From Hyalangium ruber (GTDB lineage: Bacteria > Myxococcota > Myxococcia > Myxococcales > Myxococcaceae): a stretch of DNA of 64,000 bases. Under the pieces are notes generated by a model. It worked only from the letters and a program-made list of their open reading frames with translations. It did no database searches and was not told the DNA's origin. The stretch is from assembly GCF_034259325.1 (NCBI RefSeq), contig NZ_JAXIVS010000001.1:1178001-1242000 (forward strand), written 5' to 3'. Within the stretch, counting starts at the first letter, position 1. Each line of letters begins with the position of its first letter. Shown here in pieces: positions 8,464-64,000 of the stretch. The position numbers and the translations under genes are program-made.

Positions 8464-10196
8464 TGGAAACCGCACTGCAACCCGCGAACGACATCCAGCG
8501 TTTCCTCAGCGAGCACGCGGACAAGGAATTGCTGCGACTGGTGGTGGTGGGCTCGGTGGACGACGGCAAGTCCACGCTGCTGGGCCGGCTGCTCTACGAG
8601 TGCGACAGCCTGTTCGAGGATCAGATCTCCGCGGTCCGGCGCGCCACCGCCAAACGCGCGGCGGCGGCCCGCGAGGGCGTACCCACGGAGGCGCTGGCCC
8701 AGGGGCTCAAGGCCGCGGCGGGCGCCGAGGTGGAGGAGATCGACTTCTCGCTCTTCACCGACGGCCTGAAGGCCGAGCGTGAGCAGGGCATCACCATCGA
8801 CGTGGCGTACCGCTACTTCTCCACGCCGCGCCGCAAGGTCATTGCCGCCGACACGCCGGGACACATCCAGTACACGCGCAACATGGCCACCGGCGCCTCC
8901 ACGGCGGACGCGGCGGTCATCCTCGTGGACGCGCGCCTGGGCGTGCTGCCGCAGACGCGGCGCCACGCGTACATCGCCTCGCTGCTGGGCATCCCCTACC
9001 TGGCGGTGGCGGTGAACAAGATGGACATCGTGGACTTCGATCGCGAGGTCTTCGAGCGCATCGGCGCCGAGTTCACCACGTTCACGAAGGAGCTCGGCTT
9101 CACCCAGGTCCGGCTCTTCCCCGTGAGCGCCCGCGCGGGCGACAACATCACCCGCCCGAGCACGCGCACGCCCTGGAACGAGAACGGCACGCTCCTGTCG
9201 TGGCTGGAGTCCCTGCCCCACCAGCGCCGGCTGGACGAGGCGCCCTTCCGCTTCCCCGTGCAGTACGTGCTCCGCCCGCACCTGGACTACCGGGGGTTCG
9301 CGGGACAGATCGCCTCGGGCACCGTGAAGCTGGGAGACGAGGTGGTGGTGCTGCCCTCCCTGCGCCGGAGCCGGGTGGCGGCCATCGACACCTTCTCGGG
9401 CTCGCACGCGGAGGAGAGCGCGCCCTCCTCCATCACCCTGCTGCTGGCCGACGAGGTCGACATCAGCCGGGGTGACGTGATTGCCCACCCCGAGCACCTG
9501 CCGCAGGTGCTGCACCGGCTGGAGGCGATGCTGGTGTGGTTCGGCGAGCAGCCCCTGGACCACACGCGCCGCTACCTGGTGAAGCACTCCACGCGCACGG
9601 TGCCGGCCCACGTCGAGCAGATCCTCTGGCGCAAGGACCTGGAGAACCTGACCGAGGTTTCCGCGGAGGCCCTGGGCCTCAATGACATCGGCAAGGTGCG
9701 CCTGGTGTGCAAGCGGCCCCTGGTCTGCGACCCGTACCAGGCCAACCGGAACACCGGCGCCTTCATCGTCATCGACGCGCTCACCAACGACACGGTGGCG
9801 GCGGGGATGATCCTCGGGCCGGCGGGCTCGGAGGCGGAGCAGGCCTCGGCGGGCTCCCTCGTCACGACGAAGGAGCGGCGCGAGCGGCTCGGCCAGACCG
9901 GCGGCGTCATCGTCCTGCCGGACGCTCCGAATGCCGAGCAGCAGGCGTTCGCCCTGGAGCGCCGCCTGTTCGACCTGGGCCGGCACGTGTCGGTCGTCCG
10001 GGGTGACACCGACGTGGCGCTGGCGCTGGCGGAGGCGGGACTGCTGGCCATCGTCCACGCGCCCTCGCTCCAGGCCCGGCGGGCCCTTCACGCGCAGCTT
10101 CGCGACGGAGACCTCAGCTGGGTCGAGCTCGACGCCTCCGCGAACCTGGAGGGCTGGCTCGGTCAGATCGCGGCGGCGCAGGAGAAGACGTCATGA
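8463..10196 (+). CDS. cysN: Sulfate adenylyltransferase subunit 1 with decayed APS-kinase (CysC) domain
   Basis: A 577-residue GTPase subunit that drives APS synthesis with CysD. It has GSVDDGKS (residues 30-37), the switch sequence EREQGITIDVAYRYF, DTPGH and NKMD, then EF-Tu-like beta-barrels. From about residue 477 a ~100-residue tail aligns by eye with APS kinase: LERRLFDLGRHVSVVRGDTD matches the helix and strand after a CysC P-loop. The P-loop itself is gone (VLPDAPNAEQQ where GLSGSGKST is expected), and the catalytic middle is deleted. The tail is probably enzymatically dead. ATG at 8463 overlaps the cysD stop. Confidence 0.93.
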   Translation: METALQPANDIQRFLSEHADKELLRLVVVGSVDDGKSTLLGRLLYECDSLFEDQISAVRRATAKRAAAAREGVPTEALAQGLKAAAGAEVEEIDFSLFTDGLKAEREQGITIDVAYRYFSTPRRKVIAADTPGHIQYTRNMATGASTADAAVILVDARLGVLPQTRRHAYIASLLGIPYLAVAVNKMDIVDFDREVFERIGAEFTTFTKELGFTQVRLFPVSARAGDNITRPSTRTPWNENGTLLSWLESLPHQRRLDEAPFRFPVQYVLRPHLDYRGFAGQIASGTVKLGDEVVVLPSLRRSRVAAIDTFSGSHAEESAPSSITLLLADEVDISRGDVIAHPEHLPQVLHRLEAMLVWFGEQPLDHTRRYLVKHSTRTVPAHVEQILWRKDLENLTEVSAEALGLNDIGKVRLVCKRPLVCDPYQANRNTGAFIVIDALTNDTVAAGMILGPAGSEAEQASAGSLVTTKERRERLGQTGGVIVLPDAPNAEQQAFALERRLFDLGRHVSVVRGDTDVALALAEAGLLAIVHAPSLQARRALHAQLRDGDLSWVELDASANLEGWLGQIAAAQEKTS

Positions 10197-12031
10197 CGTC
10201 CCTGCCTGCCTCGAACACGGCGCCGTCGCCACAGACCTCGCCCTTCGTGAAGGCCCTGCTGGGCGAGGAGCGCAGCGCCCTGCTGTCCCGCCTGGTGGAG
10301 GGCCTCGACTCGACCACCTTGCACTGGCTGAGCGGCTACCTCGCGGGCGTCGCCGCCCAGGCGCCGCTCCAGGCCTCCGCGCCCACTCCGGTGCCTCAGG
10401 CGGTGCCGGATGCGCGGCTCACCATCGTCTACGGCACCCAGACGGGGAACAGCCGGCTGCTGGCCGAGCGTCTCAAGCGCCATGCGGAGTCCTCGGGGCT
10501 CACGGTGCGCACCCTGCGCGCCGGGGAGTACCCGGTGAAGGAGCTGCGCGAGGAGCGCCTGCTCTACGTGGTCATCAGCACCCAGGGCGACGGGGATCCG
10601 CCGGATGACGCGCGCGGCTTCTGCGAGTTCATCCTGGGCAAGCGCGCTCCCAAGCTCGAGCAGCTGCGCTTCGCGGTGCTGGGGCTGGGTGACTCGAGCT
10701 ATCCCAAGTACTGCGAGGTCTCCCGCGTGCTCGATGCGCGCCTCGCGGAGCTCGGCGCCACGCGGCTGCTCGACCGGGCGGACTGCGACGTGGACTTCGA
10801 GCCGGTGGCGAAGGGCTGGATCGACCAGGCGGTGAACCACGCGACCGAGACGCTCAAGGCCCGCGCCACGACCAACGTGGTGACGCTGCCTCGGAGCGCC
10901 CCTCCCGCTCCGACCTTCAGCCGCGAGGCGCCCTACGCGGCCGAGCTGCTCGCCAACCAGCGCATCACCGGACGTGGGGCGCTCAAGGACGTGCGCCACA
11001 TCGAGGTGTCCCTGGGGGACTCCGGCCTGAGCTACGAGCCGGGAGACTCCCTGGGCGTGTGGCCCCACAACCCGCCTGAGCTGGTCGCCGAGTTCCTGGC
11101 CGAGCTGAAGCTCCAGGGCGAGGCCGAGGTCTCCCGAGATGGGCGCACCCTGCCGCTGCGCCTGTGGCTCTCGGAGGAGCTGGAGCTGACCAAGCTCAGC
11201 CGCCCGTTCCTGGAGCGCCACGCGGCGCTGGCTCGCAGCACGGAACTCCAGCGCCTGCTCACGCCAGAGGGCTCCGAGGCGTTCCGTGCGCTGCTCAAGA
11301 GCCACCAGGTCATCGATCTGCTGCGCCAGTGGTCGGCGCCGTGGAGCGCGGAGGAACTGGTGCGCGCGCTGCGCCGCCTCACGCCGCGCATGTACTCGCT
11401 GGCCTCCAGCCAGAAGCGCGTGGGCGCCGAGGCACACCTGACCGTGGCGGTGGTGGACTACCAGGCCTTCGGTACCCGCCACCTGGGCGCTGCCTCGAGC
11501 TACTTGTCCACCCGGAACGGGGACACGGACAAGGTGCGCGTCTTCGTCGAGCACAACGAGCGCTTCCGCCTGCCCCGGGAGTCCGAGCGCGACATCCTCA
11601 TGATCGGCCCTGGTACGGGCGTGGCGCCCTTCCGGGCCTTCGTGCAGGAGCGCGCGGAGTCAGGGGCGAAGGGCCGCAACTGGCTCTTCTTCGGCGAGCA
11701 GCACTTCCGCACGCAGTTCCTCTACCAGACGGAGTGGCAGGAGGCCCTCAAGCAGGGAAGCCTGAACCGGCTCTCGCTCGCCTTCTCGCGGGACCAGGAG
11801 AAGAAGATCTACGTGCAGGACCGCCTGCGCGAGGCGGGGCGTGACGTGTACGCGTGGCTGGAGGGCGGCGCCTCCCTCTACGTGTGCGGCGAGGCCCAGA
11901 AGATGGCGCCGGACGTCCACGCGGCGCTCATCGACATCATCTCCACCCACGGGGGCCGGAGCCGCGAGGACGCGGCGGCCTGGCTCGACACGCTGCGCGA
12001 GCAGCAGCGCTACCAGCGCGACATCTACTGA
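10193..12031 (+). CDS. cysJ: Sulfite reductase (NADPH) flavoprotein alpha subunit
   Basis: A 612-residue electron-transfer subunit that passes electrons from NADPH through FAD and FMN to CysI. Order: an N-terminal helical region, a flavodoxin domain ([18 protein letters not shown] near residue 81; [27 protein letters not shown]), an FAD-binding domain ([16 protein letters not shown]), then the NADPH domain ([40 protein letters not shown]) and C-terminal RYQRDIY. All cofactor motifs are intact. It overlaps cysN by 4 bp and precedes cysI by 14 bp. Confidence 0.97.
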
Positions 12032-12045
12032 GACGAGCACGCACC

Positions 12046-13734
12046 ATGAGCACGCCCAAGTCCCCCACTCTCACCGAGGTGGAGCGCATCAAGGCGAAGA
12101 GCCACCTGCTGCGCGGCACGCTGACCGAGAGCCTCGTGGACCCGGTGACCGGGAGCATCGCCCCTGACGACACGAGCCTCATCAAGTTCCACGGCAGCTA
12201 CCAGCAGGACGATCGGGATCTGCGCGAGGAGCGCCGGCAGCAGAAGCTCGAGCCGGACTACAGCTTCATGATCCGCACGCGCCTGCCGGGAGGCGTGGCC
12301 ACTCCCACCCAGTGGCTCGCGCTGGACGCGCTGGCGAGCAAGTACGCCAACGGCACGCTGCGGCTCACCACGCGCCAGGCCTTCCAGCTCCATGGGGTCA
12401 TCAAGAACCACCTCAAGAGCACCATGGCCGGCATCAACACGGCGCTGCTCGACACGCTGGCGGCGTGCGGTGACGTGAACCGCAACGTGATGTGCAACCC
12501 CAACCCAGTGGAGACGCGGGTCCACGAGGAGGTGTACCGCTGGTCGGCGCGCCTGTCCGAGCACCTGCTGCCCAAGACGCGCGCCTACTACGAGGTGTGG
12601 TTGGACGGGGAGAAGGTGTCCGGCGGCGAGGAGGAGCCCATCTACGGGCCCACCTACCTGCCTCGGAAGTTCAAGGCCGCCATCGTGGTGCCGCCGATCA
12701 ATGACGTGGACGTCTTCTCGCAGGACCTGGGCTTCATCGCCATCCTCGAGCAGGGCCAGCTGACGGGCTTCAATGTCACGGTGGGCGGAGGCATGGGCGC
12801 CACGCACGGAGACGCCGCCACCTTCCCGCGCCTGGCGGACGTCATCGGCTTCATTGCTCCCGAGCAGCTCCTGGCCGTCGCGGAGAACGTGGTGAAGGTC
12901 CAGCGCGACTACGGGGACCGCACCAGCCGCAAGCACGCGCGCCTGAAGTACACCATCGAGGACCGAGGCATCGCCTGGTTCGTCTCAGAGCTGGAGAAGC
13001 GGCTGGGCTTCTCACTGCAGCCGGCGCGGCCCTTCCAGTTCGAGCACAACGGGGACCTGTTCGGCTGGCGCCAGGGCCATGACGGCAAGTGGCACCTGAC
13101 GCTGCGCATCGAGAGCGGCCGCGTGGCGGACCGGCCAGGCGCGACGATGCTGACGGGGCTGAGGGAGATCGCTCGCATCCACCAGGGCGACTTCCGGCTC
13201 ACGCCCAACCAGAACCTCATCATCGCCGGGGTGACTCCCGAAGCGCGGCCGGCGATCGAGGCCCTCGTGGAGGCTCACGGCCTCGCGGGCTTCCGCACCG
13301 CCAGCCCCTTGCGCCTCAACGCGCTGGCCTGCGTGGCGCTGCCCACGTGCGGCCTGGCCATGGCCGATGCCGAGCGCTACCTGCCCCGCGTGGTGGGGCT
13401 GCTGGAGGAGCGCCTGAAGGCGCACAGGCTCCAGGACGAGAAGATCTTCCTGCGCATCACCGGCTGCCCGAACGGCTGCGCCCGGCCGTACGTGGCGGAG
13501 ATCGCCCTCGTGGGCAAGGCGCCTGGCCGCTACAACCTCCACCTGGGCGGAGACGTGCGCGGCCAGCGCCTCAACCGCCTCTACCGCGAGAACATCGACG
13601 AGGCCGGCATCCTGGAGGCGCTCGAGCCGCTGTTCGCCTCCTACGCCCGCGAGCGTCGCCCCGGCGAGGGCTTCGGTGACTTCACCGTGCGCGCCGGCCA
13701 CGTCCCTTCCCCCGCTGCCTCCGCTTCGAGGTAA
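12046..13734 (+). CDS. cysI: Sulfite reductase hemoprotein beta subunit
   Basis: A 562-residue siroheme/[4Fe-4S] enzyme for the six-electron reduction of sulfite to sulfide. The coupled cofactor is bound by Cys429 and Cys435 (C-x5-C in [16 protein letters not shown]) and Cys474 and Cys478 ([11 protein letters not shown]). The substrate-side arginine/lysine motifs ([26 protein letters not shown]) are present. ATG at 12046 is the natural start, 14 bp after cysJ. The upstream siroheme genes supply its cofactor. Confidence 0.97.
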
Positions 13735-13737
13735 CCC

Positions 13738-14772
13738 ATGTCCCCCCTGCGCTTCACGCTCCTGCTGCTGACAGCAACCCTGCTCCCCCTCCTGGGAGGC
13801 TGCTCGAAGCCGGATGGCGCGTCGACCGAGAGCGTCACCCTGCTCAACGTCTCCTATGACCCGACCCGGGAGCTCTACGAGGAGTTCAACGCCGCCTTCG
13901 TGAAGCACTGGGAGGCGACGAAGGGCACGAAGCTCACCCTCAAGCAGTCCCACGGCGGCTCCGGCAAGCAGGCGCGCGCCGTCATCGACGGACTGGAGGC
14001 GGACATCGTCACGCTGGCGCTGGCCTACGACGTGGACATGCTCCACGACAAGGCAGGCCTCATCCCCAAGGACTGGCAGGCGCGGCTGCCCAACAACAGC
14101 TCGCCCTACACCTCCACCATCGTCTTCGTGGTGCGCAAGGGCAACCCCAAGGGCATCCGCGACTGGGAGGACCTCATCAAGCCCGGCATCTCGGTCATCA
14201 CCCCCAACCCGAAGACCTCGGGCGGCGCACGCTGGAACTACCTGGCGGCCTGGGGCTACGCGCTGCACAAGGCGGGCGGTGACGAGAGCAAGGCCCGCGA
14301 GTTCGTCACGAGCCTGTTCCGCAACGTGCCCGTGCTGGACTCGGGCGCCCGGGGCTCCACCACCACCTTCGCCGAGCGCGGCCTGGGCGATGTGCTCATC
14401 GCCTGGGAGAACGAGGCGTTCCTGCTGACGGAGGAGGTCGGAAAGGACCGCTTCGAGATCATCGTCCCGTCCGAGAGCATCCTCGCCGAGCCGCCCGTCA
14501 CCGTGGTGGACAAGAACGTGGACAAGCGGGGTAGCCGCGCCGTGGCCGAGGCCTATCTCCAGTACCTCTACAGCGAGGCGGGCCAGGAGATCGCCGCCAA
14601 GCACCACTACCGCCCGCGCTCTCCGGCCGTGGCCGCGAAGTACGCGAGCCGCTTCCCCTCCGTGCGCCTGTTCACCATCGATGAGGTGTTCGGCGGCTGG
14701 CGCCTGGCGCAGCGCACGCACTTCGATGACAGCGGCGTGTTCGATCTCATCTACACGCCCAGCGCGAAGTGA
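13738..14772 (+). CDS. sbp: Sulfate-binding lipoprotein of ABC transporter (Sbp/CysP family)
   Basis: A 344-residue solute-binding protein. The signal peptide ends in a lipobox (LLGGC, Cys22), so it is probably lipid-anchored. Conserved Sbp features include [44 protein letters not shown], and [21 protein letters not shown], which carry the sulfate-binding backbone loops. It begins 3 bp after cysI and precedes the two permeases. Sulfate versus thiosulfate specificity is not decided by sequence alone. Confidence 0.95.
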
Positions 14773-35099: not shown

Positions 35100-35420
35100 G
35101 CGCCGAGTTCGTTTGCCGAGCGGCCGAGCGTGCATCGCTGATAGCCCGCTCCCTCAAGCAGGGGCGGAGCCGAGGCTGGAGGAGGAGAGCCCCGCCTTTG
35201 CCGCGACGGTGGAGGAGCCGAGGAAGGAGCGCACACCCCGTTCGGATTGGGCCGGGCTGCTGCGCGGGACGTTCGCCCTGGATGTGTTCGCGTGCTTGAG
35301 GTGTGGAGGCAGGCTTAAGGGTAGTGGCGTACGTGAAGGGAGCAGGAGGGGTGAGAGCGATTCTGGAGCAGTTGGGGTTGCCCACGGCGAGTGCGCACCT
35401 GGCCCCTGCGCGAGGGCCAC
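35100..35420 (+). mobile_element. IS91-like transposase remnant, copy 1 (frameshifted)
   Basis: The plus strand reads RSDWAGLLRGTFALDVFACLRCGG, then after a frameshift VVAYVKGAGGVRAILEQLGLPT and LAPARGPPQSAAG. This is the C-terminal zinc-finger region of Y2_Tnp (IS91/IS801-like) transposases. About 100 codons remain. The same block occurs three more times in the window (near 40620 plus, 49000 minus and 58300 minus). Confidence 0.7.
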
Positions 35421-35715
35421 CCCAGAGCGCGGCTGGGTAATGGCGGAGGATGTCACCGGCCGAGTAGTACGGATTACACCCTACTTATCGCATCAAACGG
35501 CCGGGGTGCCGCTTGCCTGCTTGCCCGCAAGATGAGGGGATGCCTCAGTTCCTGCAGCTACACAGAGCCGGGCGGCACCAGACCATCTGGTCCATCAACT
35601 GCGCGATCACCCGTGCGGAAAATATAGGTACATGGATAGGGTTCATACCAGTCGGGCCGGAGCGGATTACGTCATCTCTCTTGCCCGCTTGCGCCTTGGC
35701 CTGGGCCCCGGCGTG
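35421..35715. other. Non-coding stretch after IS remnant
   Basis: No protein-like frame, RNA gene or repeat was recognised here. It separates the transposase remnant from the 3' end of a small gene and may be further element debris. Confidence 0.4.
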
Positions 35716-40619: not shown

Positions 40620-41020
40620 GAATGCGGCGTTGCAGAGGGCGAGCGTGAGACCCACGCAAGGGGAGGTGGAGCGGTTGCTGAGGGTGGTGAGCCATCGGGT
40701 GCTGCGAAGCTCCGGCCATTTCTGCTCCCCATTGCGGAGGCCGAGCCGAAAGAACAAGAGGCGAGCGCACCGCCCGAGGCAGCGGCGAAGGCGGAAACGA
40801 AGAAGGAGCCAACGCCCCGACTGGATTGGGCAGGGCTGCTGCGCAAGAGCTTCGCGCTCCACATGTTCGTGTGCGGCAGATCTGGAGGCTGGCGCCAGGT
40901 GCTGGCGTATCTGATGGCTCCCTGTGGGGTACGCTCCATTCTGGAGCACCGGGGATTGCCCTCGCGGCCTGCGAAGCGGGCCCCGGCGCAGGGGCCAACC
41001 CAGCGGGCGGGGTGTTGCGG
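40620..41020 (+). mobile_element. IS91-like transposase remnant, copy 2
   Basis: The longest coding remnant of the four. One frame reads TPRLDWAGLLRKSFALHMFVCGRSGG (the second Cys of the finger is Ser), VLAYLMAPCGVRSILEHRGLPS and PAQGPTQRAG. Missing upstream parts include the catalytic Tyr/His region. It is followed by an element end at 41143-41224. Confidence 0.75.
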
Positions 41021-41142
41021 TACTCAACTCAGCCAACAGGCCCAAGCCCCCCAACCCACCGCGCCCCCCTTGCAACGGCGGCCTGGGCTGGCGTGTACCT
41101 CGAGGGGCTGCGCGGCCTCCCCTCACCACCGGGTTCACTGCT

Positions 41143-42117: not shown

Positions 42118-44565
42118 CTACGAGAGTACAGCAAGCACGTCCGTATCAGGTTCATCCGCCAAGATCGCCCCCGTGTCCGTGAGGTTGAATCCATAGGGCC
42201 ACTGCGTGCTCTTGTCGTAGATCGCGCCTTTCAGGTTGGCGCCATGGAGCAAGGCCTCCGAGAGATTTGCACCGTGGAGCAAAGCGCCCTCCAGCGAAGC
42301 GCCGTCCAGCACAGCGCCTTTAAGTGAAGCGTTCAACAGGTTTGCGGATCTGAGTTTTGCATCCCTGAGATCAGCGCCGTCCAGCTTAGCGAACGTCAGC
42401 ACGGCGTCGGTCAAATCTGCCTCGTGGAGAACGGCTCTTCTAAGGTTGGCTCTCTCCAAAGAAGCGTTACGAAGGCAAGCAGATGAAAACTGTGCGAACT
42501 CGAAATCTCCCCTGTCAAGGAGAGCATTCTTGAGGGAGGCGCCCACGAAAAGGCTCCCTGTGCACATCGCTCCGAACAGGCGGGCTCGATCGAGCTGAGC
42601 CTTGGTAAAATCGCACGGTTCAGCACTGCCGACACGACGGCGCATGAGATTGGCGCCCGTGAATAGAACTCCCCGCAAGTCCGCCTCCCGGAAGTTGGCT
42701 CCTCGCAAGCTCAGTTCCGACAGTACGGAGCCCTCCCACCGGGCCTTGGGCGCAATGAGGATGGGACCGACTCGCATCAGCCAGAACCACGCGAGCATCG
42801 CGCGAACCGTGAGGCTGTCCTTGACCTGCATGCCAGGACTTCCGTGGAGGCAACTCCCAATGGCCAGCGCGCCCTCCCGCAGCCAAGGCATCCGGTCCTC
42901 TCGCAGCGCCTCGGGACGGCGCGCAGGGTATCGGTGTTCCTCTGACTCGAAGCGGTCTTGAGCCCACGCCAGCAGTTCCCGCTGATATTCCTTGGCCAGC
43001 CCAAAGGGTGCATTCGGGTGCTGAGTCAGAGGCTCGCCGTTCAACATCTCCATCAGGAACTCGAAGGTCCGGTCCTCACGACTGAGCAGTCGTCCGTCGA
43101 GGAGCGGCTCCTCGATCTTCTTCCACTCCTTCTCTCTCGCCTGAGCGAGCGCCTTCAAGCGGTCCGCCCAGTAGCGGGCTGCCAGGTACTCCCGAAAGGT
43201 CTTGTGGCCAAACAGGAGTCGGCTGGCCCTCCCTGCTCTCAAGTGGGCCTGCATGCTCAGCAGCAGCCCCCCCTGGATCGCCTTGAGGGTATCCGGAGCC
43301 GACCGGAGTCCCAGCTCATCTTCGATGAGGTTTTCGATCTCGCGCTCGGTCAGCTCCTCGAGAGCTTCCTGATCGAAGTACTTGCTGCGCTGCTGGCGCT
43401 TCGTGGCTTCCCATGCCACCCGGCCCATCAGCCAGAGCATGGCATCGGGCTCGCTGGCGGACTCATCGAGCAGTTTCTGCTTCGTCAGCTGCTTGAGCAG
43501 CTTCTCGGACGACTCGGCGATGTTTTGATGGTGCTCTCGCGCGTCGTCGTGCTTCCCCTTGGCGATCTGCCAGAAGAATTCCTCGTACAGCGCAGCCTGG
43601 CTCGTGCCCTCTCCCTGGGTATGGCGGCTCCACGTCTGGGCGATCATGAACAGGAGGATAGGCGTGCCCGCAAGACTGTCCAGCCCGCGAGCCTTCACTT
43701 CCTGGAAACTCAGCCCTTGTCCTTCATGGGCCTGACGCCAGTTCCTGAGCCACTTGTCGATCTGCTCCTCACGCCAGGGCAGAATCTCGACCACGGGGAT
43801 GTTCTTCAGGTCCTGCTCAGAGGGAAGTGCGCCGGGACGCGAGAGGAGAATGAAGCGATGGTTGGGGGTGGCTTGATCACGAATGTGCTCGAAGAAAACC
43901 TTCAAGCGCCGCTCATCGAGGATGACCTCATCCAGTCCATCGATCAGGAAGACCGTCCGCTGGTCCTTCTCGGGAAGAGCCAATGACGTGTCACTCGTCT
44001 TCAGTCCCACGTCCAGATCGCCTGCCTGCCGCTTCCATGCCCTGCGCACAGCCTTCTCAAGATCGAAGTCGTCACTGGGCAGGTCCTCGGCGCAGCGGAT
44101 GAAGACGGGCAGGATGTGCTCGGAGGAAGTCTCCCTCCCCGTCAGGAACTGCTGAGCCCAGCGCTGCGCCAGACTTCGAGCGGTAAGGGACTTGCCCATT
44201 CCAAAGTCCGCCTTGACGACGACGACATGTTTCTTCGGCTCCTTCAGCAGGGATTCGATGAGCTTGATCACCGGCTCCCCGTCCTCAGAGCTGGCACTGG
44301 TGGTCCAGGCGTTCGGCTCGACGTACAGCTGCGTCAGGGACAGGAAGGGGATTCCCGAGTCGGCCCGCCAGTTGCGCCGCTCCACATTGCCGAAGATGTG
44401 GCGCTCTCCCCAGGTGGCCATGTCCTTGAGGAGCAGTTCTCTCAACAGGCGCCCCAGGTAGTCGCTGGACAGGCGCTGCAGGTACTCCTGGAGCGGCTGC
44501 CCTTCCGAGGTGCTCAGGGCTGAGCCTGCCCCGATTTTGTGGACACCCCTGATGAGTCGAAACAC
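42118..44565 (-). CDS. NACHT-domain NTPase with C-terminal pentapeptide repeats (5' end split by an IS)
   Basis: An 815-residue STAND-type protein as written. Walker A-like VKADFGMGKSLTARSLA near residue 118, Walker B VFLIDGLDE near 205-213, FILLSRPGAL as sensor I, and a helical middle; an extended pentapeptide-repeat tail (about 640-790: repeated A(D/N)L, for example EADL, GANL, DADL-like blocks). Such NTPases act as signal-sensing switches, and bacterial NACHT proteins include antiphage proteins. The visible start (GTG 44565) lies inside an IS3-family element. The original start was probably ATG at 45808, reached by removing the element and one target copy. Confidence 0.8.
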   Translation of the reverse strand: MFRLIRGVHKIGAGSALSTSEGQPLQEYLQRLSSDYLGRLLRELLLKDMATWGERHIFGNVERRNWRADSGIPFLSLTQLYVEPNAWTTSASSEDGEPVIKLIESLLKEPKKHVVVVKADFGMGKSLTARSLAQRWAQQFLTGRETSSEHILPVFIRCAEDLPSDDFDLEKAVRRAWKRQAGDLDVGLKTSDTSLALPEKDQRTVFLIDGLDEVILDERRLKVFFEHIRDQATPNHRFILLSRPGALPSEQDLKNIPVVEILPWREEQIDKWLRNWRQAHEGQGLSFQEVKARGLDSLAGTPILLFMIAQTWSRHTQGEGTSQAALYEEFFWQIAKGKHDDAREHHQNIAESSEKLLKQLTKQKLLDESASEPDAMLWLMGRVAWEATKRQQRSKYFDQEALEELTEREIENLIEDELGLRSAPDTLKAIQGGLLLSMQAHLRAGRASRLLFGHKTFREYLAARYWADRLKALAQAREKEWKKIEEPLLDGRLLSREDRTFEFLMEMLNGEPLTQHPNAPFGLAKEYQRELLAWAQDRFESEEHRYPARRPEALREDRMPWLREGALAIGSCLHGSPGMQVKDSLTVRAMLAWFWLMRVGPILIAPKARWEGSVLSELSLRGANFREADLRGVLFTGANLMRRRVGSAEPCDFTKAQLDRARLFGAMCTGSLFVGASLKNALLDRGDFEFAQFSSACLRNASLERANLRRAVLHEADLTDAVLTFAKLDGADLRDAKLRSANLLNASLKGAVLDGASLEGALLHGANLSEALLHGANLKGAIYDKSTQWPYGFNLTDTGAILADEPDTDVLAVLS

Positions 44566-48984: not shown

Positions 48985-49235
48985 TTCACGAGCTTGGCTC
49001 ACACCCCTGCCGTGGGCAAGCCCAACTGCTCCAGTATCGCTCGCACTCCCCTGCCTGCCTTCACGTACGCCTACATCCGCCCCCTGCCTCCACACCTCGC
49101 GCAGGCCCACACGTCGAACTCGAACGTCCTCTTCAGCAACCCTGCCCCATCCACTCGCGGCCTCCTCTGCTTCATCCGCTCCTTCCTCGCCGCTGCCTCA
49201 CTCCCCGCTCTCGCCTCCTCTGCTTGGGGGACCCA
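48985..49235 (-). mobile_element. IS91-like transposase remnant, copy 3
   Basis: On the minus strand the remnant reads RKERMKQRRPRVDGAGLLKRTFEFDVWACARCGG, MYAYVKAGRGVRAILEQLGLPT and AG. It is nearly the same block as copy 4 at 58272-58577. It separates the kelch oxidase gene from the DUF4331 operon end. Confidence 0.7.
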
Positions 49236-54780: not shown

Positions 54781-55203
54781 ATGGACACAGGGCACTCGAG
54801 CGCCGGGCACCCTGCCCTGCTCCCGATGGGCATCGAGGTGGGGCACTGGCGCGTGGTGGGCTGGGCTGGCTGTGGTGTCTACGGGGCCGTCTTCCGCGCC
54901 GTGCCTCTCTCTGAGCCTCACACTCCTGCCATCGCCCTCAAGCTGGCCCTGTACCCGGCGGATCCGCGCTTCGCTCGCGAGGTGAAGCTGCTGTCCGGCC
55001 TGGCGCACCCCCACATTCCACGCTTCGTGGGCAGTGGCGAGTGGAGGCACCCGGCCGGCTCGCTCCATCCGTACATTGCCATGCAGTGGGTGGAGGGCGT
55101 GCCGCTCTACGACTGGGCGCAAAAGCAGCAGCCGGGCCCCGCCCAGGTGCTGCGGGTGCTGGCCGGGCTGGCGCGGGCCCTGGAGGCCTTGCATGCCCAG
55201 GGT
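54781..55203 (+). pseudogene. Ser/Thr protein kinase gene truncated by an IS21-family element
   Basis: The frame from ATG 54781 reads MGIEVGHWRVVGWAGCGVYGAVFRAV (a P-loop-like glycine loop), ALKLALYP (Lys), VKLLSGLAHPHIPRFVGSGEW and LARALEALHAQG. It stops being kinase-like exactly at the IS21 left end, before the HRD catalytic loop, DFG and the substrate lobe. A residual ORF continues into the element. Not a working kinase. Confidence 0.85.
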
Positions 55204-55217
55204 GCGTATTCCGGCGA

Positions 55218-55295
55218 AGCCGGACACCCGTTCCGGAGCAAGCCGATCACCGATTCCGGCAAGCCGATCACCGATTCCGGGCAAGCCGATCACCT
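55218..55295 (+). repeat. IS21 left subterminal repeats
   Basis: Three near-copies of AGCCGATCACCGATTCCGG (with spacers) in 78 bp. The same motif in inverted orientation fills 57866-57975. These repeated end sites are the probable IstA binding sites. Confidence 0.7.
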
Positions 55296-55316
55296 GCGTG
55301 ACGACGCTGGAGTTCT

Positions 55317-56070
55317 CTACTTCGCCGCCTTCTTGGCCGTGGTCAAACTCTCGGCCTTTCGAATGGACTCACCGCCGAGCTTGAGGCGGTGGGCGTTGTG
55401 GACGAGCCTGTCGCAGATGGCGTCAGCCAAGGTGGCGTCGCCGATGATGGCATGCCAGTCCTTGGGCTCCAGTTGGCTGGTGAGGACGGTGGAGCCGAGC
55501 TGGTAGCGGTCGTCGAGCACTTCGAGCAGTTCCTTGCGCTGCGCGGCGCCCAGGGGCTCCAGACCGAAGTCGTCGAGGATGAGGACCTGAGCCTTGGCGA
55601 GCCGGTAGCAGGTGGGGGTAGGTGCCGTCGGCGCGAGCCTGAGCCAGCTCGTCGAAGAGCCGGGAGGTGCGGCGGTAGAGGACGGAGTAGCCCTCGCGGC
55701 AGGCCTTCTGCCCCAGCGCACAGGCCAGGTAACTCTTGCCCACGCCGGTGGGCCCGGTGATCAGGACGTTCTGGTGGCTGTGCACCCAGCGGCAGGAGGC
55801 CAGGTCCAGCACTACGGTCTTGGACAGGCCTCGGGCGTGCGAGTAGTCGATGTCCTCGATGCAGGCCTGCTGCTTGAGCTTGGCGTTCTTGAGCCGCTGC
55901 TGCAGTTGGCGGTTGTCCCGGTGCAGGTGCTCGGCGTCCACCAGCAGGCCAAGCAGATCCGCTGGTGCCAGCTCCTTCTCCTGGGGCTGCTCCAGCCAGC
56001 GCCGCATGGCCTTGGCCATTCCGTTCAGCTTCATCGCCTCGAGCTTCTCGAGGGTCTGCTCTACAAGCAT
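55317..56070 (-). pseudogene. istB: istB-type helper ATPase (frameshifted)
   Basis: From ATG 56070 the frame reads MLVEQTLEKLEAMKLNGMAKAM, then the P-loop [16 protein letters not shown]. Near 55607, after ADGTYPHLL, one extra base shifts the frame; [18 protein letters not shown] (Walker B) and [16 protein letters not shown] continue in another. Function is lost unless the frame is an assembly error. Confidence 0.8.
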
Positions 56071-56202
56071 GGGGGTCTCCGTGGCAGCCTTCAGGGGCTG
56101 CGGGTGTGCGGCCTCGTTGTCGTCGCGGGCGGCCGGCGCGCACGCTGCGCGACGGCCGCCCCCTGAGCACCGTGAGGCCACCAGCGGTGCTCAGTCAGCA
56201 CT

Positions 56203-57799
56203 TCAGTGGTAGTAGTCCGAGCCGCGGACGTTGCCGTGCGCAGGCAGGGCCATCAGTTGCGGCTGCTCCGGGGTCGGCTCTCGGTCCAGGTTGTTCTTCA
56301 GGATGGCGGCCACGCTCTTGTAGCTGCATGCCCGCAGCCCCAGCGCCCGCGCGCACGCCGCTTCAATCCGGGCCGTCTCGTACTTGCGGCTCAGGTGCAG
56401 CACTCCCAGGCAGGCGCGGAAGCCATGCTGGGCATGCACCCGGCGCCGCATTATTTCCTCCACCAGCGCGGCGGTGGCAGGGCCCGTCTTCTTGGCCCAC
56501 TCGATGAGCCGCGTGGGTGTCCACTCCGCCTGAGCTTGGTGCGCCTTGGGCATGTGCTCGGGCTGGGTGGTGTGCTTGCCCTTCTCGGTGCTGCGAGGGT
56601 GCGAGGTGACGCGGCGTCCGCTCAGGAAGAGCTCGACGACGGTGGCGGTGGCGCGTAGGTCCATCTGCTTGCCCACCAGCTGGTAGGGCACGCTGTAGAA
56701 GTGCTCGTCGAACTCCACGTGGTAGTCGATGTGCACCCGAGGCCGCGCCCACTGGGCGAACTCGTAGCGCCGAGCGGGCAGAGGCCGCAGCGCCGCGCGC
56801 TCCAGCTCCTCGAAGACTTGCCAGCGCGACTTCTTCAGCTTCTTCATCGGCCGCTGGTTCAGCTTGTCCACCAGTGGCTTCACCGCCTGGCGCAGCTCCT
56901 CCAGCGAGAAGAACGTGCGGTGGCGCAGGGCGGCCAGAATCCACCGCTCTGCCAGCAGCACGCCTTGCTCCACCTTGGCCTTGTCCCGGGGCTTGCGCAC
57001 CCGCGCCGGTACCACCGCCGCGCCGTAGTGCCGCGCCAGCTCCGCGTAACTGGGGTTGATGTCCGGCTCGTACAGGTCCGGGCTCTTCACCCCGCTCTTC
57101 AAGTTGTCGGGCACCCACACCTCGGCCACTCCGCCCATGAACTCCAGCGCCCGGACGTGGCAGCCCACCCACGTCGGCAAGTCCTCGCTCAGCACCGGCT
57201 CGGCGTAGGTGAGGTTGCTGGCTCCCAGCACCGCCAGGAACAGCTTGGTCTTCGTACATTGCCCGCTGGTCGGATCGACCAGGTCCACTCCATCCCCGCT
57301 GAAGTCCAGGAACAGCTTCTCGCCTGCGCGGTGCGTCTGCCGCATCGTCACATTCAGTGTGCTCGCCCACTGGGCGTACCGCTCGCAGAACTGCGAGTAC
57401 TGGTAGCACCCCCGGCTGCTCCGTCTTGTACTCCTCCCACAGCAGCTGCTTGGTGACGTGCTTCTTGCGCAGCTCCAGGTGCACCCGCGCCCAGTCCGGC
57501 TCCGGCCGGTTGCGCGTCGGGTGCCCCTCCGTGGAGAACAGTAGCCGCGTGAGCGCCCCGTCCTCGTCCAACTCCGCCGGCAGCGGCCAGCTCAGCTTCG
57601 CTACCTTCACCCGGCCCAGGTACCCGCTCACCGTGCTCGGCGAGAGCGAACAACTGCGCGCGATCGCCCGCGCGCTCATCCCCAGTTCCAGGTGCAGCCT
57701 CAGTATCTCTCTCAGCTTCCGCATGGACAGCCTCTCTGCCGCCACAGCCCCTCCTTGTTCGGGAGGCGGTGTGCTCGGCTCTCTGTCCAGCGTCGTCAA
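56203..57799 (-). pseudogene. istA: istA-type transposase (frameshifted)
   Basis: N-terminal HTH (MRKLREILRLHLELGMSARAIARSCSLSPSTVSGYL) is read from a TTG/ATG start near 57799-57724. After LLWEEYKTEQPG a G5 run (near 57404) shifts the frame. The remainder carries the rve-like catalytic core (LFLDFSGDGVDL, AVLGASNLTYAEPVLSEDLPTWVGCHVRALEFMGG) and RWQVFEELERAALRPLP, the typical IstA end. Single-base frameshift in an otherwise normal-length gene. Confidence 0.82.
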
Positions 57800-57865
57800 C
57801 GCTCCGGCTCTACCTTCACCCTGAGCTTGCTACAGCCCTGTTCCGGCCTGGGTCACCCTCCAAGC

Positions 57866-57975
57866 GGGTGATCGGCATGGTCGGAATCGGTGATCGGCTT
57901 GCTCCGGAACAGGTGATCGGCTTGCTCCGGAATCGGTGTTCGGCTTGGCCCGGAATCGGTGATCAACATGGCCCG
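57866..57975 (-). repeat. IS21 right subterminal repeats
   Basis: Several inverted copies of the GATCGGCTTGCTCCGGAA motif (spaced about 20-30 bp), mirror of 55218-55295. They end at the right border of the element, near 57985. Confidence 0.7.
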
Positions 57976-58068
57976 GAGCACGCATTCTGGCCGAGAGCAG
58001 CCCTCGGTCTGTCCAGCGCGAATGGAACGGCGCTGTCGGTCGCATTCGCCAGCCGTCGCCTGCTCGGT

Positions 58069-58577
58069 GCGTATAGGCGGATAGAGGCCATGTTGCGGGT
58101 GGGGGTGGGAGCGCAGGTGCCGAGGAGAACCGCTGCCAGGGGCCGCCCGAGCCGTGCGCCAAGCGTGTGGACAGGCCGCGCAGCCCCTTGAGGTACACGA
58201 CTGCCCAGGCCGCCCTCCCATGGGATGCACGGTAGGGGACTGGGCCTTCTGGCTTTGGGGAGGCGTCAGCCTCAACACCCCGCGGCCTGGATTGACTCTT
58301 GCGCCGGGGCCAGGCTCTCACCTGCCGTGGGCAAGCCCAGGTGCTCCAGTATTGCTCGCACTGCCCTGCCTGCCTTCACGTACGCCAACACCCACCGACT
58401 GCCCCCACACCTCACGCAGGCGAACACGTCGAAGTCGAACGTCCTCTTCAGCAACTCTGCCCCATCCACTCGCGGCGTCCTCTCCTTCATCCGCTCCTTC
58501 CTCGCCGCTGCCTCACGCCCCGCTCTCGCCTCCTCTGCTTGGGGGAACTCCCGTCCGCGGATCATCCGCGACTTCAT
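58069..58577 (-). mobile_element. IS91-like transposase remnant, copy 4, with 3' end
   Basis: On the minus strand a 101-codon frame (58577-58272) reads KERMKERTPRVDGAELLKRTFDFDVFACVRCGG, WVLAYVKAGRAVRAILEHLGLPT and LAPAQESIQAAG. The element end is near 58069-58099 (GCGTATAGGCGG, related to the termini at 41224 and 45892). This is the clearest copy that joins transposase end and terminus. It abuts the phosphorylase gene stop. Confidence 0.75.
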
Positions 58578-60091
58578 CGGACCAGTTCAGGGAATGCGAG
58601 GTTCCGAAGCTCGGGCTCGGGGGTGTCTTTGTATCGCTCGAAGACTTCCTTGGATTGCTTCGCGATGTTTCCCAGCTTGCCCTTTCCCGCGAGCGCCTTG
58701 AAGTTGCTGATCCGCATCCTCATGCTGCCCGGCTTGATTCCCCGCCGCTCCGCGATGGTGTCCAGGTCGAACGGGAGCAACGCCGCACCGAATCTGTACA
58801 GGTAGAAGGCGACGAGATCGTCAGCCTCGCTCCAGGAGTGTCGCTCCTCTCCTGACTCGAAGATGGAGAGTAGGTCCGTGATGATGCTGGTGGGGGGCTG
58901 CTGCACCGCCGGTCCGTTGGCGGGCGGGGGCTCCGCGCGCGGCTCACGTTCCACGTCATCCACGATGAGAGGAGCCAGCACGTCCTTCTTGTTCAGGACG
59001 TGCTCGACAAGCGAGACGGCGGCCTGGGCGGCAAAAGCCTGCACCCTGTCCGTCTTGCTTCCGTCGCCCCAGTCACAGAGCGCCTTGACCAGGAGGACCT
59101 CAACGCTCTGGCGAGCTGTCGCGGCGTAGAGCCCAGCGCCCTCCATCTCCCCGGCGACCGCTTGAGGAAAAGCCTCGATGAGGCGCCCAAGGAACTCCTT
59201 GCTGTCGACAAGCTTCTCGCCCGAGAGCATCACTCCTTGGAAGACATTCACGAACTCTTCGCCGCGGGCGAACCTCCAGTCCGCCCTGCGCGTCCGGAAT
59301 CGCTCGGACAGCAGCGAGCCACAAAGGATGGGCTGCGCGCGGTGAGTCACCTTCATGTCCACCCGCTGCAGTTCGTAGGGGGTGACGGATTCGGCGATGA
59401 TCACATCTCCGAGCCGCTGCTTCTTGGGGTCGAGACCGAAGGCGATCCCGACGGATAGGACGACCTTGGGCTCCAATTCGTTGAGGGCATCGTGGATCGT
59501 GAGCGCGGCCCCATGACGAGCCTGGCTCCCCGCCGTGCTCTCCACATGGGCGACCGGGTAGCGGCCGAGCCGGCCGAGGCGGTAGGTGACGCGGTGAATG
59601 GCTCCTTCGACCAGTCCTTTCCGTCCAGCGAGAGGAGCCATCCTCAGGTGAAGCGCCTTCCGTTCCGTGTCCGTCGACGTCAGCAAGAGCACCTGGACCT
59701 TGTGCCGCTGCAGAAGCGTCTTCAACTCAGCCGTGGAGACGTCCTCGTAGGGAGGCTGGGGTTCCAGAACCGCGGTGGGGACATGGTTGTAGACACACTC
59801 ACTCCCCAGGCAAATCTCCTGGACGAACCGAGCACCGAGCATCGCCACCATTGCGTCGAGCTGCCCCCGCTCCGCATCCTTCAAGAGCCGTAGGAGCGAA
59901 TACTGCGGGATGTCGAGAACGAGCGAATAGCTCCTGAGACCTGCGCGGCTCGGAACCGTGAAGTGTGCACCGTAAGTCACGCTCAGTGCGTTCGACAGTC
60001 CCGGCCAGTTCTCGAACGATTCCGGAACAGCGAGTAACAGCCTCGGTAGAACCGTGCCCAATAAGGAAGGATCATCAGGAGCTTGATTCAC
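58574..60091 (-). CDS. Nucleoside-phosphorylase (PNP/MTAN-like) domain protein with flanking domains
   Basis: A 505-residue three-part protein. Residues 1-125 are unrecognised. Residues ~130-370 are a phosphorylase-superfamily domain: VQVLLLTSTDTERKALH, VLSVGIAFGLDPKKQRLGDVIIAESV, the substrate motif AGEMEGAG (Glu316, Glu318) and a catalytic-type Asp340 in CDWGDGSK. A Pro-rich linker (~380-402) leads to a helical C-terminal domain (DLVAFYLYRFGAALLPFDLDTIAERRGIKPGSMRMRISNFKAL). PNP-like domains occur in bacterial NLR-like and defence proteins; nucleotide cleavage is a fair guess. GTG at 60091 is the start. Confidence 0.8.
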   Translation of the reverse strand: MNQAPDDPSLLGTVLPRLLLAVPESFENWPGLSNALSVTYGAHFTVPSRAGLRSYSLVLDIPQYSLLRLLKDAERGQLDAMVAMLGARFVQEICLGSECVYNHVPTAVLEPQPPYEDVSTAELKTLLQRHKVQVLLLTSTDTERKALHLRMAPLAGRKGLVEGAIHRVTYRLGRLGRYPVAHVESTAGSQARHGAALTIHDALNELEPKVVLSVGIAFGLDPKKQRLGDVIIAESVTPYELQRVDMKVTHRAQPILCGSLLSERFRTRRADWRFARGEEFVNVFQGVMLSGEKLVDSKEFLGRLIEAFPQAVAGEMEGAGLYAATARQSVEVLLVKALCDWGDGSKTDRVQAFAAQAAVSLVEHVLNKKDVLAPLIVDDVEREPRAEPPPANGPAVQQPPTSIITDLLSIFESGEERHSWSEADDLVAFYLYRFGAALLPFDLDTIAERRGIKPGSMRMRISNFKALAGKGKLGNIAKQSKEVFERYKDTPEPELRNLAFPELVR

Positions 60092-60736: not shown

Positions 60737-61456
60737 GTGGCGGCTTGTGCTTCAACTTTCTCTCCGGCCACCACCCCGCGCATTGCCCGGACGATGCTCG
60801 AGGTGCGCAAGCATCTGAGTGAGACGACCCAGCGGGAGCTGGAGGTGCTGTTGCTGAACCTGACGGGGACCCGGATCCTCCAGGGAATCTTCTCGCGAGT
60901 GGTGCGGGTGGGCCCGGAGCCAGCGGCGCGTCCCCTCGCGAGAGGGGAAATGCACCGGGGGGAGGCTCCAGCCTCGCGACAGCCCGGGCCGCGCCCCGCT
61001 GCCCCCGCCCCTGAGTCGCTGGCGCCTGCTCCCGCAGCGGGTGCATTGACGCCATCGCCAGGCCTGGTCCAGGCGCTGACAGGTAACAACCCAACGCGGC
61101 CCGTGACAGCAGGTCCACGCCTGCCTCAGGATGTCGCTGTCAGCCCGAATGTGCCCAAGCTGAAACCCGCAACCCGTCCTATCGGTCCCAGTCCCAACCA
61201 GAACGCGCAGCTTCAGGTGGACATCCAATACCTGGATAGCATGGGCGCCAAGAACATCCGGGTGAACCAACAGCAGGTGACGGTGCGCGACGGCCAGCGC
61301 GTTGGAATCAATCGGCCGGACATGCAGTTCGACTATAACGGCCGCCGCTACCATGTGGAGTACGACACCCCTATGTCAGGCCGTGCCTCCGCCCATCAGT
61401 CGCGCCTCAGGTCCAATGACCCGAACGCGGAGATCATCCTCTTGATCGTGCCCTGA
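60737..61456 (+). CDS. Putative polymorphic toxin with C-terminal PD-(D/E)XK-like nuclease domain
   Basis: A 239-residue protein as written from GTG 60737. The upstream open frame (AWFSWLAVAACAST) looks like a lipoprotein signal, so the true start may be earlier and has no ATG, GTG or TTG. A helical part (ARTMLEVRKHLSETTQRELEVLLLNLTGTRILQGIF) and a Pro/Ala linker lead to a C-terminal domain (GINRPDMQFDYNGRRYHVEYDTPMSGRASAHQSRLRSNDPNAEIILLIVP) like nuclease toxins at the end of RHS or lipoprotein carriers. The immunity candidate follows 17 bp later. Confidence 0.65.
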   Translation: MAACASTFSPATTPRIARTMLEVRKHLSETTQRELEVLLLNLTGTRILQGIFSRVVRVGPEPAARPLARGEMHRGEAPASRQPGPRPAAPAPESLAPAPAAGALTPSPGLVQALTGNNPTRPVTAGPRLPQDVAVSPNVPKLKPATRPIGPSPNQNAQLQVDIQYLDSMGAKNIRVNQQQVTVRDGQRVGINRPDMQFDYNGRRYHVEYDTPMSGRASAHQSRLRSNDPNAEIILLIVP

Positions 61457-61473: not shown

Positions 61474-62202
61474 ATGACCGAGCACCTGAAGGGCCTGCTG
61501 CTGGATGACCGTTGGGCGCCCGTCACCTCGGAGATGGGCTTTCTGGAGGCCCGCGCGGAGTATGCCGCCCGCGCCTTCGCGGCCTGGCACACAGAGCTGA
61601 TGACGCCACGTGGCATCTCTGTGGGGATGCGCCCGATTCACGGCAGCTTGGAGCAGGCGCTCTCCGCCTTGTTGCCGCTGACCCGTCCGGAGACGCGGCG
61701 GGATCTTTTCATTCCGACGCGCAGTTCCTGGACGGCGTACGTCGAGAACGGGTGGGGCGGGACCGATGCGGCGAGCGTCATGCGGCACATGGCGCGGACG
61801 CTCGGTTGCCGTGGGCTGCGAGTCGTGGCCGTGCCTGACACTTACCGTCAGGCCAAAGGCCGCTATGGTGCCGTGATGCTCGAGGTGTACGGCCCGCACC
61901 AGACAACCTGGCTCAACTACGTGCGGGCTGTGAGCGCGTCCAATGATGGGGGCCGCTGGGTCTTCGAGCAATTCGGCGAGCCCTTCTCCTTCGAGAAGGT
62001 GGAGCAGTACCAGGCGCGCCGGGTGAGGGACCGGTTCACCTTCGACATGCTTAAGCAGTACCTGCATCACCTGGGGCTGGCACCCTTCGAGGAGGATTTC
62101 TTCCTGCCAGAGGGCGCCCCCGCCTGGCTGGTGGAGAAGTCAGGTCCGGTAGCACCCACGCATGAGGAACTCACCCTGGCCCAGGCCCGGGAGAACTTCT
62201 GA
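61474..62202 (+). CDS. Putative immunity protein for the adjacent toxin
   Basis: A 242-residue cytoplasmic protein without a signal or known catalytic motif. It starts 17 bp after the toxin gene and is alone in being co-directional, the usual toxin-immunity layout. Segments: MTEHLKGLLLDDRWAPVTSEMGFLE, FIPTRSSWTAYVENGWGGTDAASVMRHMARTLGCRGLRVVAVPD, and MLEVYGPHQTTWLNYVRAVSASNDGGRWVFEQFGEPFSFE. These have the acidic, aromatic character of immunity proteins. No family was named. Confidence 0.6.
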   Translation: MTEHLKGLLLDDRWAPVTSEMGFLEARAEYAARAFAAWHTELMTPRGISVGMRPIHGSLEQALSALLPLTRPETRRDLFIPTRSSWTAYVENGWGGTDAASVMRHMARTLGCRGLRVVAVPDTYRQAKGRYGAVMLEVYGPHQTTWLNYVRAVSASNDGGRWVFEQFGEPFSFEKVEQYQARRVRDRFTFDMLKQYLHHLGLAPFEEDFFLPEGAPAWLVEKSGPVAPTHEELTLAQARENF

Positions 62203-62361: not shown

Positions 62362-63549
62362 CTAGCCCAGAGCGGCGCGCGGCTGGGGGATGGGACGATC
62401 CAGTTCCTGCACCGCGCTCTCGCGCGCCTCGGGCGACAGGTGCGCGTACCTCATGGTCATCTCGATGGTCGCGTGGCCCATCAACTCCTGGATGACCTTG
62501 AGAGCAACGCCCCGCATCGCGAGGTGGCTGCCGTAGGTGTGCCGCAGGTCGTGCCAGCCGATGGAACCCTCCGGGCGGCTGACTCCTGCCCTACGCAGCG
62601 CTCGCAAGAGCGGGTGCTTGGTCATCCCAGCGGTGAGCGGGCGACCGTCCGTCTGGCAGAACACGTAAGGGCCGCACAGGTGGCGGTGTGCCTTGAGTGC
62701 TTCCACCGCCGACGTGGGCAGGTCCACGGTCCTTTCCCGTCCACCCTTGGGCAGTCCCACCACGCCGCGCCAGATCGTTCGGCGCACGTTGAGCTTGCCG
62801 CGCTGCAAGTCCAGGTCTGCCCACTGGAGCCCGATCAACTCGCCAAGCCGCAGCCCCGTCTTGAGCGCCACGAGGATCAACGTCCGCCACTCCGGCTCAG
62901 CGGCATTGCTCATGCGCTCGGCTTCCTCGAAGGAGAGGAAGTCAAAGGCGGGCTTGTCCGTCTTGAACAACTTGACGCGCGGGACGTGTTGGAGCACGCC
63001 CTGTTCTTGAGCCAGTGCCAGCAACTTGTGCAGGACCGTCAGAACGTTGTTGATCGACTTGAGGGAGAGCAGCTTCACCGCACCGGAGCCCTTGCGCTTG
63101 AGGAGGGCCGCCCGCGTGGGAGCTTCCTTCCGTGCGCGCGCCCCCGAGGGCTTCTTACGCATGGCCGCCTTGAAGTCTTCGATCTCCGCTGGACCGATGG
63201 CATCAAGGGTCATGTTGCCGAACGCGGGGATCAGATGATCATCCAGGATCTGCCGCTTGGTGACGACGCTTGAGTGCTTATTGTTGTTCTCGCTGTACGT
63301 CAGGAAGCGCGGGACGAACTCCCCGAGGGTGAGAACCCGACCCGCGCCGTTCTCCTTTCCGAAGGTTCCGGTCAGGAGTGCATGGCGGATCTGGCGCTCG
63401 TACTCTTCAGCCCCACGGCGGGTGTTGATGGGCGAAGCCTTGCGGATGCGCTCCACCCTGCCGCTGGGGTGCTGGTACTTGACGTCCACCCACCACGCCT
63501 CTTGCACCTTGCCCTCCTGGGTCTTCCACTGCCGCAGTCTGACGCTCAT
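62362..63549 (-). CDS. Tyrosine recombinase (phage-type integrase)
   Basis: A 395-residue integrase. N-terminal arm-binding and SAM-like core domains (LGEFVPRFLTYSENNNKHSSVVTKRQILDDHLIPAFG), then the catalytic domain: Arg in KTGLRLGELIGLQWADLD, His-x-x-Arg in GWHDLRHTYGSHLA, Gly-His in LMGHATIEMTMRYAHLSPEAR, with the Tyr nucleophile. All key residues are present. Its 3' end faces the att core at 62247-62271. It overlaps the excisionase gene by 4 bp. Confidence 0.95.
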   Translation of the reverse strand: MSVRLRQWKTQEGKVQEAWWVDVKYQHPSGRVERIRKASPINTRRGAEEYERQIRHALLTGTFGKENGAGRVLTLGEFVPRFLTYSENNNKHSSVVTKRQILDDHLIPAFGNMTLDAIGPAEIEDFKAAMRKKPSGARARKEAPTRAALLKRKGSGAVKLLSLKSINNVLTVLHKLLALAQEQGVLQHVPRVKLFKTDKPAFDFLSFEEAERMSNAAEPEWRTLILVALKTGLRLGELIGLQWADLDLQRGKLNVRRTIWRGVVGLPKGGRERTVDLPTSAVEALKAHRHLCGPYVFCQTDGRPLTAGMTKHPLLRALRRAGVSRPEGSIGWHDLRHTYGSHLAMRGVALKVIQELMGHATIEMTMRYAHLSPEARESAVQELDRPIPQPRAALG

Positions 63550-63770
63550 GGCTTCTTGTCTCCGAGCGCAGGCCTGCTGTTACCGGGGCGCCATGTTAGC
63601 AGCGTGTCCCGATGGATGCGGAGGATTCGACCGAGGCGAGCAACACCGGGCACCTGATCGAGCCGGATCGCCTCATAGAGAGTCTTCCGGTTCACGCGCA
63701 GCAATTCGGCGGCTTCCTCCACGGTGAGAAAGGCGGGCGCGTTGCTCGCGGTCAGAGGGGGCGCGCTCAT
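63546..63770 (-). CDS. Excisionase-like HTH protein
   Basis: A 74-residue DNA-binding protein with the MerR-like excisionase fold: AFLTVEEAAELLRVNRKTLYEAIRLDQVPGVARLGRILRIHRDTLLTW. It overlaps the integrase start by 4 bp and would act with it as directionality factor. Start at 63770; longer upstream starts give non-conserved sequence. Confidence 0.88.
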   Translation of the reverse strand: MSAPPLTASNAPAFLTVEEAAELLRVNRKTLYEAIRLDQVPGVARLGRILRIHRDTLLTWRPGNSRPALGDKKP

Positions 63771-64000
63771 AGCTGATCCCCCGCCAGCATCGACGCGGCG
63801 GATCGCGTCGCTCTGTTTCGTTGATGGTTCTGTGTCTCGTGTTGCCCCTGCATGGGTGAAACGCTCCCGACTGCCGAGTGTCCGACGCTGCGGGCCTGTC
63901 TCCAGGACGCGCGGCGCCATGCCGTGAGACGAGGGGAGCCGCGAAGCTGGAAGCCATGCGGCGACCCGAGCGCATCCGGGGGGCGGAGGGGGAACGCTGC
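63771..64000. other. Non-coding end of window, inside the integrative element
   Basis: No gene, RNA or repeat was recognised in the last 230 bp. The element probably continues beyond the window. Confidence 0.4.

Follow-up and report, generated by a model that had tools for sequence, protein, structure and literature searches.

A three-part phosphorylase-domain protein of Hyalangium ruber as a candidate nucleotide-depleting immune effector

A gene on the minus strand (58574 to 60091) of the 64,000-nucleotide stretch of Hyalangium ruber DNA analysed here, hereafter the window, encodes a 505-aa protein built around a domain of the nucleoside phosphorylase family. Such domains occur both in metabolic enzymes and in bacterial conflict systems, which raises the question of what this one does. 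A preliminary description of the locus had proposed a three-part protein that depletes nucleotides in defence.

Gene layout and catalytic domain

The open reading frame started with GTG and was open throughout its 505 codons, without internal stop. Codon-position composition and substitution rates mark it as a real gene under purifying selection: GC reached 0.78 at third codon positions against 0.43 at second positions (0.68 at first positions), and dN/dS between the three-part gene and its homologues was about 0.15 to 0.33. One copy was present in the 10.8 Mb genome. The proposed three-part layout held, with an N-terminal module (aa ~12-110, 59762 to 60058), a PNP/MTAN-fold enzyme (aa ~131-375, 58967 to 59701) and a helical C-terminal domain (aa ~416-505, 58577 to 58846), all on the minus strand.

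The catalytic domain matched Pfam PNP_UDP_1 (PF01048) over aa 160-360 (E 3.9e-14), and the protein matched the PADLOC effector model PDLC00759 ('PN-superfamily', E 9.6e-20). Its predicted core resembled MTA/SAH nucleosidase (MTAN) structures across about 220 residues with Z of about 22 to 25 (best 24.9), in a low-depth AlphaFold model with a mean pLDDT of 59 (mostly 78-92 for residues 111-180 and about 50-85 in the remainder of the core). The Glu-Met-Glu and Asp residues highlighted in the preliminary description corresponded to the active site: in the alignment, the ribose-binding motif E315-M316-E317 (59141 to 59149) matched E. coli MTAN E172-M173-E174, and D340 (59072 to 59074) matched the general acid D197. 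With E143 (59663 to 59665), equivalent to E. coli MTAN E12 and invariant in the alignment of PNP relatives, the full MTAN catalytic set was intact.

While sharing this fold and the catalytic Glu/Glu/Asp with MTA/SAH nucleosidases (MtnN/Pfs), the protein was only about 20% identical to them, carried extra domains and scored under the equivalog cut-offs (PRK05584, 53.9 bits against 169; TIGR01704, 32.8 against 73.8). The loop forming the 5'-alkylthio pocket, HDADVTAF in E. coli MTAN, was replaced by TPYELQRV, within a segment running from Y239-E240 to R251 (59339 to 59377). The same genome also encodes a separate MTA phosphorylase (L055; 455 bits, cut-off 437). A plain MTA/SAH nucleosidase, which the preliminary description had named as the finding that would count against a defence role, was ruled out on these grounds. 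A purine nucleoside phosphorylase (L054) scored above its NCBIfam cut-off elsewhere in the genome, where PF01048 genes numbered seven: the window gene, L054, L055, two more small enzymes, and two genes for large proteins (L058 and L060, below).

The residues of the substituted loop recurred in defence-type proteins. Y239-E240 was kept in nearly all of the effector-type PNP domains that were compared. Most of them also had R251 and K293, neither of which is conserved in MTAN; a basic residue close to the 5' end would fit a substrate that carries phosphate. The PNP-effector motifs SG[ED], YE and EME were all conserved in the window protein.

Homologues and flanking modules

Homologues of the PNP part were patchily distributed, occurring in only a handful of 96 family genomes, and viral contigs contained no relatives. 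One homologue (L018) was arranged as CHAT-[N module]-PNP-SIR2_2-like and was 56% identical across aa 12-377, so that the N module and PNP domain were common to both proteins, while the CHAT domain, the SIR2-like domain and a WD40-repeat partner gene were found in L018 only and the C-terminal cassette in the window protein only. This partner, the next gene after L018, encodes a protein of 1270 aa that consists mostly of WD40 repeats and has a P-loop-like motif close to its start. Another homologue (L020, 49% identity) displayed the order TIR-WD40-Roc/Ras-cyclase-like-[N module]-PNP. In a third (L019, 59% identity across aa 111-394), PNP was fused to retron DUF3800_VII / DUF626_VIII; unlike the window protein, it had no N module and possessed a DUF3800-type C-terminal domain adjoining a retron reverse transcriptase (RT). 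At positions 9184-14124 of that locus, a type VIII-like retron RT (RT_VIII, E 1.2e-92) and a SIR2_2 protein were encoded convergently to the PNP-DUF3800 protein, and the locus is likely a retron with a PNP effector. PADLOC gave no DUF3800-type match in the window protein, and inspection by eye of the 52-64 kb part of the window, around its gene, revealed no RT-like ORF. A truncated relative (L021), also retron-like, was likewise without the N module.

More distant homologues included a calcineurin-PNP-NB-ARC-TPR protein (L017), a PNP-NACHT protein (L010), a PNP effector from a Klebsiella plasmid, where it adjoins a CBASS cyclase (L029), and, in Agrobacterium, a response regulator followed by a receiver-like and PNP protein, Detocs-like as judged by layout (L027). 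The window's own genome encoded at least three conflict-type PNP proteins, the other two being a large PNP-NB-ARC protein (L058, G000:C1:735683-736402) and a large PNP protein with TPR repeats (L060, G000:C4:249031-249720). Identifiable homologue contexts were thus bacterial immune or conflict architectures, and not the housekeeping contexts that the preliminary description had weighed against its own proposal. As sensor or signalling modules, these homologues have CHAT, TIR-Roc, retron RT or NB-ARC; the window protein has N- and C-terminal domains that were not recognised as any known family.

The tree placed the window PNP domain in a clade (support 99/99) that also comprised L018-L020 and proteins of planctomycete, Eubacteriaceae and Rhizobium origin. 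The CBASS and Detocs-like rows, long branches among them, lay outside this clade. As the clade was separate from these representatives, the substrate could differ. We know of no assayed member of this clade.

The N module stood directly before PNP in two homologues, following CHAT in L018 and the cyclase-like domain in L020. Judged from these sequences, it is a separable module without known family match: none was obtained in Pfam, NCBIfam, PADLOC or PDB sequence families. Both end domains were modelled from the window sequence without homologues. The N module was predicted as alpha+beta at pLDDT below 50, and in this low-confidence model its predicted secondary structure loosely resembled TRADD-N (PF20694). 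PF20694 had no match in the genome at E <= 10 and the N module itself none in Pfam; a remote version is possible.

The C-terminal domain was predicted to be helical, as described earlier, with five helices (pLDDT 69, pTM 0.60). The HTH-like layout also attributed to it found little backing, the best PDB structure match being homeodomain-like at Z 4.5, a score that carries little weight where the fold is helical. No sequence-family match was obtained in Pfam, NCBIfam, PADLOC or PDB, PDB profile search included. A suspected likeness to the N-terminal domain found in certain HNH endonucleases gained no backing: matches were at chance level in plasmids and phages and absent from PADLOC and NCBIfam. 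The domain did not occur in viral contigs, nor beyond chance in plasmids and phages.

At the DNA level, homology of this domain spanned about 58567-58847 and delimited a separate cassette, also found as stand-alone genes of 90-100 aa (L022, L023), inside a longer ORF (L024) and as a frameshifted copy (L025). The longer ORF probably reflects read-through after loss of a stop codon and was not taken for a true fusion. Copies were about 70% identical where intact, with dN/dS of 0.2-0.7, mostly 0.2-0.4. The domain was present in 5 of the 189 phylum genomes, the window's own included, all within the same family; among the genomes searched, its fusion to PNP was seen in the window gene only, where it retained its conserved residues. 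The copies in L022-L025 lay in unrelated places, some with a common short upstream flank (..CACTGGAGCACA..), and this helical domain of about 90 codons is possibly a tiny mobile or domesticated gene.

Proposed role and alternatives

A defence effector depleting nucleotides, as put forward in the preliminary description, was the best-supported reading, given that the closest homologues were conflict-system proteins, that a PADLOC effector model matched and that a plain MTAN was ruled out. Because of this homology and architecture, a probability of about two in three is assigned to the protein acting as an effector in bacterial immunity, with a PNP/MTAN-fold domain that would hydrolyse a nucleotide (ATP and/or dATP most likely) upon phage sensing. 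In CBASS, Detocs, pAgo, DRT8 and NLR-like systems, effectors with a PNP (PF01048) domain are described as degrading (d)ATP (Rousset et al. 2023, as cited in PMC10952713), and the best-described Detocs PNP effector splits ATP into adenine and ribose-5'-triphosphate (PMC11249213). Kaur and colleagues also counted PNPase domains among conflict-system effectors or signal generators (PMC7159879, PMC8195603). Nucleotide hydrolysis by the window protein would follow the example of the characterised ATP-cleaving effectors of CBASS and Detocs.

The window protein resembled these ATP-cleaving effectors ('Cap17': CBASS, Detocs, pAgo, DRT8, NLR-like) in PF01048, catalytic residues and the three motifs, as well as in its PADLOC effector match, a Cap17-like example (L029) adjoining a CBASS cyclase. 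It differed in its separate tree clade, its other N-terminal module, its extra C-terminal cassette and its lack of a linked sensor gene. Among the flanking ORFs in the window, no linked sensor or operon partner was recognised, so that this copy is either an orphan effector or self-contained, perhaps as a single-gene variant.

In the proposed mechanism, sensing of phage infection would lead the PNP/MTAN-fold domain to cleave a nucleotide at its N-glycosidic bond, with ATP and/or dATP as the most likely substrate; the loss of nucleotide would then leave the cell unable to support phage growth (abortive infection). Activation may occur by partner contact through the N module, which in homologues follows other signalling or protease-like modules and precedes PNP, and the C-terminal cassette could play a regulatory or targeting role, possibly by binding nucleic acid. 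A more specific proposal, speculative at this stage, is that a mobile 90-residue HTH-like nucleic-acid-binding cassette was recruited to trigger an ATP/nucleotide-cleaving PNP enzyme in a self-contained single-gene effector, with the N module as an undescribed effector-coupling domain common to CHAT, TIR-Roc and stand-alone systems. If the cassette were the trigger, it would represent a compact new control of ATP-depleting immunity. The catalytic module itself is known from several bacterial immune systems, and its attachment to the small mobile C-terminal domain was seen nowhere else. In one bacterial family, one PNP effector module (~50-60% identical) was displayed on three immune platforms (CHAT-type, TIR-Roc-cyclase and retron type VIII-like), which makes effector swapping directly testable.

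Three other explanations were weighed against depletion. A metabolic role, as an MTA/SAH or other nucleosidase with regulatory domains and no part in defence, would account for the MTAN fold (Z ~22-25) and MTAN-type catalytic residues, but is improbable in view of the score far under the 169-bit equivalog cut-off, the replaced substrate loop, the supply of MTA phosphorylase and PNP by other genes (L055, L054), the patchy distribution and the immune architectures of homologues. Rather less remote, and still unlikely, is that the domain generates a signal instead of depleting a pool, the PNP freeing a base from a nucleotide to yield a second messenger that activates another effector. Such a role was proposed for conflict-system PNPase domains by Kaur, Aravind and colleagues (PMC7159879), and PNP adjoins cyclase-like and TIR domains in L020 and a SIR2-like domain in L018; against it, no dedicated receptor gene was recognised adjoining the window gene, and the characterised PNP effectors work by bulk (d)ATP cleavage (PMC10952713, PMC11249213).

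About as unlikely, or marginally less so, is a remnant: a former effector severed from its operon by IS21 and IS91/ISCR elements, rearranged onto the mobile 90-codon cassette and now inactive or unregulated. Transposase debris does abut the 3' end of the gene, in the form of the C-terminal fragment of an IS91/ISCR-type transposase (58272 to 58577, minus strand; NF052416, E 7e-8), with IS21 another 0.6 kb on; the fused C-terminal domain is a stand-alone gene elsewhere, and the relative L021 is truncated. Yet all 505 codons were open, the catalytic residues were intact and the fused domain kept its conserved residues, and an active nucleotide hydrolase without regulation should disappear fast.

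Genomic neighbourhood

The IS21-type insertion (55213 to 57977, minus strand) carried istA/istB-like genes (Mu-transpos_C_2, rve) and inverted terminal repeats, arranged as arrays of 21-23 bp units, and may separate the gene from its former downstream content. The insertion directly follows the initial portion of a serine/threonine-kinase-like ORF (~54900-55215), the remainder of which was not seen across the IS21. IS91/ISCR-type fragments gave 24 matches genome-wide, several on the same contig (among them ~48996-49231, 40750-41126 and 35200-35432), and with its scattered fragments the region is recombination-rich.

The neighbours named in the preliminary description were partly borne out. A toxin-like C-terminal fragment (60737-61456, plus strand) and an immunity-like protein (61474-62202, plus strand) do adjoin the gene, as a pair without Pfam or NCBIfam family match, but the NACHT gene said to be adjacent lies 14 kb off (42118-44565). 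Further to the right, a tyrosine integrase and an excisionase-like HTH gene (62362-63920, minus strand) are probably the end of an integrated element extending rightward past the window. Its att sites were not found, and a role of the gene inside this element was unsupported, as the element probably extends away from it. About 8-16 kb past the right edge of the window (L062, G000:C1 ~1249.8-1257.7 kb), a UvrD-like helicase, a Cas4-like nuclease gene and an OLD/GajA-like ATPase were encoded, possibly further defence genes.
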